A stretch of DNA of 37,358 bases, from positions 3,835 through 41,192 of the forward strand of contig BEXV01002426.1 in NCBI GenBank assembly GCA_003118195.1, written 5' to 3'. Made by a program: the position numbers and the translations under genes. The notes under the pieces are model-generated. The model was given only the letters and a program-made list of their open reading frames with translations. It was not told the origin of the DNA and made no database searches. Every line of letters begins with the position of its first letter. Within the stretch, counting starts at the first letter, position 1. Below, one piece after another: positions 21,965 to 32,134 of this stretch. Origin of the DNA: Hemicentrotus pulcherrimus. Lineage: Eukaryota > Echinodermata > Echinoidea > Camarodonta > Strongylocentrotidae.

Positions 21965-22087
21965 TTGATGAAGTCAGTAGCAGCAGTGCGTATCCCCCTC
22001 ACCGTTGAAATACCTCTGGAGCAGTCCCTTCCTCCACCACCTCCGCTCCCCCCTATGGGAGCAATGGAACACTCCGCAGTGCCACAG
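21965..22087 (+). CDS. VCL: Vinculin linker exon W14 (proline-rich, phase 0-0)
   Basis: 41 codons. The acceptor is TCTCCTATAG and the donor CAG|gttgtt, lacking both a purine at +3 and G at +5. The translation is LMKSVAAVRIPLTVEIPLEQ followed by SLPPPPPLPPMGAMEHSAVP Q. Its first part resembles the vertebrate end-of-D4 helix (ILGAVAKVREAF) and it also resembles W21 (DVGDVRQALTVNQEP), so it may be an old duplicate of that exon. LPPPPP is a candidate EVH1 (Ena/VASP) ligand, where vertebrates use FPPPPP. If the donor is skipped, the frame runs to a stop at about 22165. Confidence 0.85.
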
Positions 22088-23976
22088 GTTGTTGACCTCA
22101 TTCTTGCCCATCATATGCAAAGTGATATGCAAATAAGTCCCTTATGTACCTCCCTCTCTCATTAATCATTCATAAGATGTGTAGCTGGCTAACCAAATAA
22201 ACAAAATTGCATTTTCTCTGTAGCATGTGTAGCTGTATAAAACAAATAATTGCCCATTCAATTGTATGTACATGTTTTGTCTTAATCATGTAAACCGTGT
22301 TGTCATTGTGTGTGAATGCACATGAAATATGTAGATAGGAAAGTTAATCATATGCAAATTTATGCAGATATATCAATGTTTTTAGCCTTAATAATCTTCT
22401 TTCCCGCCAGTCATGCAGTTTTCTTGTGTACTAACTTGCAGGTCGTCATCCATTTCCTCCTTTAGATCTCTATTGTCCTCAGCATGTCTGATGACCTGAT
22501 GAATATTCATGTAGCTCAGGATTGAAGCAGCCAATTAGCTAACAGCATGTTAATGAGTATGTATATAGACAAAACTCAATGAGCACACATCACTTCTATG
22601 CACCTACTAACACAAGATACATTTATTGTGTCAATATGATAATTTAAATGCAAATGAAATTCCTGAAACAGTGTTGGAGGGATGGTATTTATAAAGAAAA
22701 TATGGCACAAGTCCAATTTGAAGAAACACTTTCAAGGGTTGTTTTATGATGGACTGATTTTGCTAATTAATTAATTTTGCCTTTGCTAAAATTTTAAGAT
22801 ATTTTTTTCTTCTAAACATGAAACGACTGATTAATTTGAGATTGCTGGATGATTGCTTGATTGTGAAACTGTTTCTATCATGATGAAAATTCATTCTGTA
22901 AGTACGTGCTGGTCTGGGAGATATGGCTGATGCAGTGTGCTAATTGTGTGTGTATATTTGTTTGTTGACTGAATTATTGCTAGAAAAATGAAAGTACATG
23001 TTCTCATTTTATAGTTGTCTTTTATTTCTAGGAGGTTTATGCCATTTGCATGAAAACCAGGCAATTTATGTTTCATACACATTCAGAGAAAATTTCAAAA
23101 TGACCCCTCAATAGCATTGAGAGGTTTAGTCTCATTTAGTTGGCTGTCTTTTTGGAGCCCAAAATATATTTGAGCTCAAAAGAAGAAAACAGTTATGTTG
23201 CTTTGGGTTATGATGAAATGAATGTTATAGGGAAAACAGCAGCTAATCGTAGTCATTGATAAAGGCATTCCTTTTACTTCATGAGAAGGATACTGCATAT
23301 ACCATTTACTAACAGATGCACAACTGCACACAATCCAAATGGTCCATGAGACCACTTGCACTTTAAAATGCACTGTACATGATATACACTTGACAAGCAT
23401 GTAATTGTTGTGAAGTTAATTGTTCTACTCTTGTTGAAAATTTACATTTAGTTTGTTTCTGATCTTTCATTTTATGTTTCAAATTTAAACAAAACAATCG
23501 GAAGTTGATATTAAATTTTGGCTTATTTGATATTAAAAAGAGATTTAATTTGATTGCATAGCTATTGAAACAGCATAGCCTTACTATTCTTCTGTGCGTA
23601 CGGTAATAATTAAGCGTTTGGAAAGTCTTTTAAAAACTGCATTTCCAAGATCCAAAGGCATGCAATACAAAGGAATTGTTTCAGACTAAAAGAATATGAC
23701 CATTCAGCAAAAAAAGTATTGAAGAAGACATTACGTTGACCATCTACTAAGCCATTTAATAGAAATTACTTATTTCAATTGGGATATACTTTTATTAGAA
23801 ATCTACTATTAATTGGGATATTATTAGAAATCTACTGTTGACTGACATTTAAATGTGTAGAATATTTGCTATACAGCCATATGATAAACTGTTAAACAAA
23901 GGCATGGAATGATACAAATTATGTTAAGATAGGCAAAGTCATTGATGATGGATTGATTGGGTGGTTTTATCCGTAG
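22088..23976 (+). other. Intron W14-W15
   Basis: 1889 bases of AT-rich DNA. I searched for further phase-0 proline-rich exons and found none with splice sites. A locally repeated AGAAATCTACTATTAATTGGG-type motif occurs around 23760-23840. Confidence 0.7.
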
Positions 23977-24102
23977 AGAGGGCCTAGCTCCTTTGCTCCA
24001 GTCCAAGCATCGTCGGGCTACTCAACTGAGAGTGCACCTCCCGTGCCTCCTCCTCCTCCGCCAGGCTCCGCCTACTCCAGACAAGCCACACCCTCTTACC
24101 AG
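23977..24102 (+). CDS. VCL: Vinculin linker exon W15 (proline-rich, phase 0-0)
   Basis: 42 codons. The acceptor is GGTTTTATCCGTAG and the donor CAG|gttgat. The translation is RGPSSFAPVQASSGYSTESA PPVPPPPPPGSAYSRQATPS YQ. It is a disordered Ser/Pro/Tyr-rich segment with a VPPPPPPG run that could bind profilin, SH3 or EVH1 domains. No vertebrate vinculin counterpart. The real-exon call rests on an uninterrupted frame, matching phase, splice sites and composition shared with its neighbours. Cross-species or cDNA support is lacking. Confidence 0.8.
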
Positions 24103-31800: not shown

Positions 31801-32002
31801 AAATGTAAAACTAATAAACATATGTGTATATGTTCTATGCACAAAGTTGAAATGTATTTCCATATTTATAGCAGTAGAAACTCATCCTGCAGCACTGACT
31901 ATCGGATGGATAAAGCTCTGAGCATCTGATTGGTCAATCAGCTGATTACATCACTCATTAACCAGCCAATCACGTTTGCTTGCACACTGTATTACCATGT
32001 AG
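28882..32002 (+). other. Intron W19-W20 (3.1 kb)
   Basis: Holds a (TG)n run at about 29314-29335, a CACACA/CCCCACAC tract at about 29665-29742 and a palindromic element at 30482-30616. The rest is AT-rich DNA. I found no further linker exon. Confidence 0.7.
30482..30616. mobile_element. Palindromic element with ~38-bp arms
   Basis: CCCGTTGCAAAAAACTTAC then ATTGATGGTAACTTTGCCA at the left are mirrored by TGGTAAAGTTACCATCAAT then GGTAAGTTTTGTGCAATGGG at the right. It is a 135-bp fold-back, MITE-like unit without coding content. Confidence 0.85.
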
Positions 32003-32134
32003 ATACAAGATGACTTGGACGCTGTGCTGAAAACGTTCCCCAATTACCCTAGTACTCCGTCTGTAGAGACGCCTACTTATGCCCCGCCCCCTGTCAGATC
32101 AGCTCCGCCCAACACCGCTCCCAAGCCAAGACAG
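32003..32134 (+). CDS. VCL: Vinculin linker exon W20 (proline-rich, phase 0-0)
   Basis: 44 codons. The acceptor is ATTACCATGTAG, with a poor pyrimidine tract, and the donor CAG|gttgac. The translation IQDDLDAVLKTFPNYPSTPS VETPTYAPPPVRSAPPNTAP KPRQ starts with a short acidic amphipathic piece and continues as Pro/Thr-rich linker. APPPVRSAPP and APKPRQ are SH3-type candidates. Both splice sites are weak, suggesting optional use. Confidence 0.78.

Follow-up and report, generated by a model that had tools for sequence, protein, structure and literature searches.

The window analysed here is a stretch of 37,358 nt of the sea urchin Hemicentrotus pulcherrimus genome (contig BEXV01002426.1, positions 3,835 to 41,192 of the forward strand). 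Its exons E1 to W22, when spliced, translate into 1147 residues of vinculin in an open frame, and the best database match of this product is the isoform X1 of Strongylocentrotus purpuratus (P0002, 1332 aa), which aligns to the entire spliced query (100%) with 96% of the residues identical. Neither the first exon nor the tail of vinculin had a match in the window in a tblastn search with the full-length S. purpuratus protein, the tail exons lying outside the window. As the window holds neither the first exon nor the tail exons, the PF01044 vinculin profile was applied to S. purpuratus proteins, which scored 869 (P0002), 862 (P0008) and 860 bits (P0010) against a cut-off of 38.1.

Seven exons, W14 to W20, separate W13 of the D4 bundle from the proline-rich neck encoded by W21 and W22 (Table 1). 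The lengths of all seven are multiples of three, each is entered at phase 0, has AG/GT borders and reads in frame 0 without stops; together they comprise 380 codons, with 82 prolines, 50 serines, 32 threonines and 13 tyrosines among the 380 residues. In a tblastn search against the window, the S. purpuratus X1 protein matched each of them in place. An earlier note on this DNA had read W14–W20 as vinculin coding exons that lengthen the proline-rich linker and differ from the metavinculin insert. Their coordinates, symmetric 0-0 phases, open frames, GT-AG borders and total length are all confirmed on the sequence, their coding role is supported by the X1 matches and the 96% identity, the linker is longer by up to 380 residues in predicted isoforms, and the position upstream of the neck sets them apart from the metavinculin insert. 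A short reading frame that follows an AG downstream of W22 and is terminated by a stop (X23, 37029–37085; AQAGRSIMAGCNVPREPV) was set aside as probably arising by chance.

Table 1. Exons around the optional set of the H. pulcherrimus vinculin gene (positions in the window)
Exon	Position	Strand	Codons	Use	Features
W13	21008..21099	+		directly upstream of the cassettes	D4, phase 1 to 0; aligned to human vinculin up to residue 823
W14	21965..22087	+	41	optional	duplicate D4-closing segment LMKSVAAVRIPLTV and LPPPPP, an EVH1-type motif
W15	23977..24102	+	42	optional	polyproline VPPPPPP
W16	24768..24911	+	48	optional	poorly conserved
W17	25766..26182	+	139	optional	in-frame 144-bp tandem duplication at 25785–26077
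W18	27541..27621	+	27	optional	nine-proline tract
W19	28765..28881	+	39	optional	conserved in Lytechinus and Diadema
W20	32003..32134	+	44	optional	amphipathic LD-like segment IQDDLDAVLKTF
W21	35601..35697	+		constant	phase 0 to 1; D4-closing segment VQSDVGDVRQALTV and MPPPP
W22	36536..36648	+		constant	canonical proline-rich neck PPRPPLP...PPPRPPPPE

Six isoforms of S. purpuratus vinculin, database predictions taken from the best 120 of 787 protein matches, differ in their use of these exons. X1 has all seven, X2 all except W20, X3 all except W16 and W17, X4 only W20, X5 only W14, and X6 none, joining W13 directly to W21 and W22. Thus, among the six predicted isoforms listed, W14 is included in four, W15, W18, W19 and W20 in three each, and W16 and W17 in two each, while W21 is present in all six; it leads from phase 0 to 1, and its omission would break the frame. 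Counted from the first residue of the exon that follows W13 up to a point 20 residues ahead of the tail anchor, the linker of these S. purpuratus models is between 62 and 443 residues long. As the predicted isoforms use different subsets, and as any subset of symmetric exons preserves the frame, W14–W20 are best described, on the evidence of these models, as optional cassette exons and not as a single fixed insert; of the original description of one inserted linker of about 380 residues, the coding exons and the 380 codons stand, while the number of residues actually inserted ranges from none to all in X1 to X6.

The cassette donors are weaker than the others, as is often the case for optional exons: a purine at donor position +3 is found in none of the seven cassette donors versus 13 of the 15 other donors (Fisher p = 0.0002). 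The cassette acceptors are unremarkable; that of W14 is poor (top 64% of the AG background), and so is the acceptor of the core exon E10 (52.9%). Seven splicing-factor patterns, compared in two regions with first-order Markov simulations, gave no convincing enrichment, the highest of the 14 z values being 3.9 (Nova-type, W14–W20 region), followed by 2.2 (CELF-type, upstream region).

Echinoid vinculin models also contain two alternative versions of a stretch of the tail, outside the window, reading GGNKKDLIDTAKE... or KTSKKELIEIAKK... (P0002, P0005 and P0012 versus P0003, P0004 and P0010). These are probably alternative exons, and the stretch is presumably the helix 2 region of the tail. By eye, W20 occurs with the GGNKK tail in five of six echinoid models and with the KTSKK tail in four of eight, numbers too small for a claim of coupling. 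One more predicted vinculin, isoform X3 of Diadema antillarum (P0015), terminates beyond W20 in an unrelated 3' end and lacks the tail; it is either a head-only form or a prediction artefact.

The boundary between head and linker does not coincide with the end of W13. This exon ends at the position of human vinculin residue 823, one past the position of Y822, which is located in D4 (PMC10281268) and is a lysine in the urchin. W21 and W22 were aligned to human residues 824–891, and for both W14 and W21 the alignment to the human protein begins at residue 824 and stays gap-free throughout the segment closing the last D4 helix. A position-specific scoring matrix (PSSM) of this closing segment was built from seven non-echinoderm segments (mollusc, amphioxus and hemichordate). 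Over 437 linker positions it scores 25.1 at the first position of W21 and 20.1 at the first position of W14, the next score being 5.0 and the best window in the head 11.1. Given these top two positions and the gap-free alignments, we read W14 as starting with a second copy of the segment closing the last D4 helix, the other copy being that of W21. The placement of W14–W20 precisely between the final D4 exon and the neck therefore needs a correction: they do precede the neck, but the last D4 residues, from human 824 on, are supplied by the exon joined to W13, whichever this is, so that W14 and W21 hold the D4 end. W14, initially taken for linker only, is according to the PSSM and the human alignment a duplicate D4-closing segment followed by a polyproline stretch. 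W20 was also considered as a third copy; the PSSM does not support this, though W20 continues the helix in an AlphaFold model.

AlphaFold models, built on alignments of 54 of the 120 listed proteins, agree with this assignment. In isoform X3, where W14 follows W13, the last D4 helix spans residues 704–728 and W14 begins at 717, so that the helix goes 12 residues into W14. In isoform X4 (W13-W20-W21) it spans 704–726, with W20 from residue 717. Mean pLDDT in the blocks 711–720 and 721–730 is 94 and 83 for X3, 92 and 78 for X4, and falls below 50 across 731–966 and 731–817, respectively. The model suggests that W20 closes D4 when it directly follows W13; this helix extension may be partly borrowed from the alignment, as alignments place different closing segments in shared columns. 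When displaced in X3, W20 forms a helix at 864–876 within the disordered linker, at a pLDDT of about 30, and the displaced W21 retains four helical residues. The X4 model best matches the solved vinculin structures 6nr7 (E 3.0e-53) and 1tr2_A (E 5.9e-53) with TM 0.64 and rmsd of 17–18.5, the latter indicating that the bundles are placed differently from both structures. Searches of the PDB with W14 behind a made-up D4 junction gave no relevant match, and those with the W20 segment no match.

For the distribution of the two copies we considered 47 echinoderm proteins (15 echinoid, 8 holothurian, 6 crinoid and 18 asteroid, with no ophiuroid among the matches listed), leaving out a 683-aa Lytechinus pictus fragment (P0017). 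By regular expressions, the linker starts with a W14-type segment in 36 of them, with a W21-type segment in eight and with another one in three. The W21-type copy is found in 45 of the 47, and both types in 34 of the 36 proteins in which the W14 type comes first. Two PSSM windows scoring at least 7, a threshold picked after the urchin scan scores had been seen, occur in 31 of the 47 echinoderm proteins, none of the 21 hemichordate ones and one of 105 others; all 21 hemichordate proteins and 104 of the others show a single closing segment. The one exception, P0087, cephalopod-like by eye, has its second window above 7 (8.0) in the linker. Urchins show the pair clearly, and in holothurians, asteroids and crinoids it recurs in weaker form: outside urchins the W14-type segment scores 12.4 in the crinoid Antedon and 7.4–8.9 in the rest, compared to 10.7–12.1 for the best head windows. 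As most of these scores lie below those of the head windows, the homology of the non-urchin W14-type segments rests also on their position and the shared proline. We would place the duplication of the closing segment on the echinoderm stem.

Exons that encode copies of one segment might be classic mutually exclusive duplicates, swapping only the end of D4. The co-occurrence of both types in 34 of the 36 models starting with the W14 type speaks against such an arrangement, as does the frame break from phase 0 to 1 that skipping of W21 would cause, and we consider it highly improbable.

Conservation differs strongly along the module. Relative to S. purpuratus X1, L. pictus X2 and Diadema setosum, in this order, identity over aligned residues is 99, 86 and 75% in the head (689 of 697 residues in S. 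purpuratus), 100, 91 and 78% in W21, and 100, 95 and 92% in W22. Among the cassettes, W14 (100, 95 and 83%) and W20 (95, 95 and 77%) are conserved above the head in both L. pictus and D. setosum proteins, W15 (98, 82 and 59%) and W19 (87, 82 and 67%) moderately. W16 is poorly conserved, at 81% (39/48), 45% (with 11 of 48 residues aligned) and 65% (17 aligned), and so is W18, at 85, 80 and 8% (12 of 27 aligned in D. setosum); W17, at 94%, 69% (77 of 139 aligned) and 48% (67 aligned), likewise belongs to the poorly conserved part. The earlier note had made conservation of the frames in sister species a check on its reading. In this protein comparison W14, W15, W19 and W20 come through, W17 is partly aligned and diverged, and W16 and W18 fare poorly; hence, these parts of the module may be noise or fast-evolving spacer. 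The two copies of the duplication within W17 differ by six synonymous and five nonsynonymous substitutions (NG86 dN 0.049, dS 0.173), a weak sign of constraint.

Local exon duplication seems to be frequent in this gene. Partial copies of E7 (94% identity), E10 (76%) and E11 (89 and 74%) are found in introns at 12640–12756, 16748–16860, 18375–18429 and 18720–18792. A 255-bp tandem array of 4.3 copies at 8324–9425 contains the 3' part of E4 in four diverged copies (78.6% nucleotide identity); as the array runs up to an N at 9426, its copy number may be a matter of assembly. Just upstream of the true W21, at 35289–35611, there are four copies of its acceptor and first exon bases, mostly in a 78-bp tandem, and these are possible decoy acceptors.

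Such a background fits the view that the exons are real yet almost neutral in function. They would then make up a disordered, rapidly growing spacer that arose through local duplications, one after another, and through splicing noise, and that serves neither as a docking site nor as a switch. The rapid divergence of W16–W18, the enlargement of W17 by an in-frame 144-bp duplication, the partial copies of E4, E7, E10, E11 and of the W21 start in nearby introns, and a linker length that varies highly both between and within groups are all consistent with this view. At the same time, W14 and W20 surpass the head in conservation in L. pictus and D. setosum alike, and a W14-type exon is retained in four echinoderm classes, so we regard a purely neutral spacer as possible but rather unlikely.

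The isoforms could also be artefacts of gene prediction, the short X6 being the main product and W14–W20 spliced in rarely or never. Indeed, the protein models are computational and the cassette donors weak, and a query with the 380-residue insert, in which many words are polyproline, had no match at E <= 1 among 7988 scored candidates restricted to 209–665 aa. On the other hand, W14, W15, W19 and W20 retain both their reading frame and their peptide across Strongylocentrotus, Lytechinus and Diadema models, and a 4,426-nt contig encodes an uninterrupted holothurian-like vinculin of 1241 aa (P0024) that has a W14-type segment and a linker of 344 residues. The lack of interruptions in such an intron-rich gene suggests that this contig is a transcript. 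A prediction artefact thus appears improbable. To the reading of W14–W20 as real, alternatively used cassettes, in its parts on exon identity, optional use and the duplicated segment, we assign a probability of roughly 0.8.

Two of the cassettes carry candidate docking motifs. The EVH1 domain recognizes the consensus [FWYL]PXPhiP, and an LPPPP peptide is capable of good binding (PMC8789275). The regular expression [FYLW]P.PP or [FYLW]PP[ALIVTFY]P finds LPPPP in W14 and, in each of the two Diadema species, FPPPP in the exon of the W14 type. In the S. purpuratus and Lytechinus models listed, a match is present in all eight that contain W14 and in none of the four that lack it, since W21 has MPPPP or IPPPP; the only EVH1-type motif of these models is located in W14. 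Beyond these genera the picture changes: LPPPP is retained in the W21 copy of Diadema and holothurians, Asterias has YPPPP in its W14-type exons, and those of Patiria and Acanthaster have no match. Moreover, seven of the eight echinoderm models starting with the W21 type lack an EVH1-type match, and all 21 hemichordate models have one. A W14-dependent EVH1 switch, as predicted from these motifs, is therefore not general among echinoderms.

LD motifs, with the pattern LDXLLXXL (PMC7703752), bind FAT, talin R8 and the vinculin tail (PMC7703752, PMC4938799, PMC12013189); in particular, LD2 of paxillin binds helices H2 and H3 of the vinculin tail (PMC12013189). W20 carries LDAVLKTF (LEAVLRTF in Diadema), in which L, D/E and L are kept, with V and F in place of two leucines. 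An LD-like pattern is confined to W20 in the urchin linker, and the first 12 residues of this exon have the top hydrophobic moment of 439 linker windows. Shuffled linkers contain the loose form of the pattern in 589 of 20000 cases and the stricter one in 48 of 20000. Among the groups scanned, the loose pattern is seen only in echinoids and hemichordates (18 of 21 hemichordate models, compared to none of 32 holothurian, crinoid and asteroid ones), and three hemichordate genera have linker segments of the ELDSVLDS- or ELDTVLDSV-type, which are skipped in some isoforms.

The arrangement in vertebrates is similar in outline, with a linker between D4 and the tail that provides polyproline docking sites. 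There, however, the linker is short and FPPPP lies in a single segment that aligns with W21, whereas the urchin has up to 380 extra optional residues and the second D4-closing copy. An optional exon of talin-1, which we take to be 17b, affects the rod domain and not a head–tail tether. Like the urchin cassettes, this exon is an optional one that alters a mechanosensitive adhesion protein (PMC9997659), although the protein itself is a different one. Metavinculin is likewise a vinculin isoform made by inclusion of an extra exon, but its 68-residue insert is in the tail domain (PMC6726196), and the urchin exons precede the neck. The LD motifs of paxillin and DLC1, where DLC1 uses L469, D470, I472, L473 and V476 on talin R8 (PMC4938799), share the LDXLLXXL spacing with LDAVLKTF of W20, apart from the V and F that replace two leucines; the urchin candidate would be situated within vinculin itself.

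Long linkers occur in vinculin models of both echinoderms and hemichordates, with a W14-type exon in four echinoderm classes. Long-linker vinculin models of Apostichopus, Holothuria, Asterias, Anneissia, Saccoglossus, Ptychodera and Glandiceps have a variable linker in the same position. The echinoderm ones share the W14-type and W21-type exons with the urchin, while hemichordates have one closing segment; the other linker exons of these ambulacrarians are mostly unlike those of the urchin, as judged by eye from 32 and 29 hand-picked proteins. Long-linker proteins of echinoids, holothurians, asteroids, crinoids and hemichordates, and shorter versions from bivalves, are thus already present in sequence databases. 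The claim that no vinculin with such a module had been described holds in that no description of W14–W20 was found among the titles and abstract starts listed in searches of open-access papers, and does not extend to the databases. We regard these forms as vinculin variants distinct from metavinculin.

We propose that W14–W20 constitute a splice-selected module at the joint of D4, the last head bundle, and the tether to the tail. Since W14 starts with a duplicate of the W21-encoded closing segment, whichever exon follows W13 completes the D4 helix, and the use of W14 displaces the constant W21 copy into the linker. W14 would provide a candidate Ena/VASP (EVH1) docking site, and W20 an amphipathic LD-like helix for which LD-binding bundles (FAK FAT, talin R8 or the vinculin tail itself) are candidate partners. 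The remaining cassettes may set the length of the tether across the range seen in the S. purpuratus models, a longer tether lowering the effective concentration of the tail at the head and increasing mechanical reach; if simple chain scaling is assumed, going from 62 to 443 residues would lower this concentration about 19-fold. The docking and tether roles are tentative, with the odds somewhat against them. The full scenario, in which the closing exon was duplicated before the living echinoderm classes split and the product became a splice-selected adaptor, with W14 deciding on Ena/VASP recruitment and W20 serving as vinculin's own LD motif, with which it would bind FAK, talin R8 or, in cis, its own tail, is more doubtful still, and we would call it unlikely as a whole.

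If true, it would mean that W20 does in cis, within vinculin, what paxillin does in trans in vertebrates, and that the Ena/VASP site of a duplicated exon moved from the constant to the optional copy in some lineages. The linker of vinculin is generally regarded as a tether. Should echinoderms adjust its length and docking sites by splicing, the isoforms X1 to X6, some of which also differ in the tail stretch, are natural constructs that vary in the length of the tether, the end of D4, the EVH1 site and the LD-like helix, and would permit a direct test of how the linker contributes to autoinhibition and force transmission.
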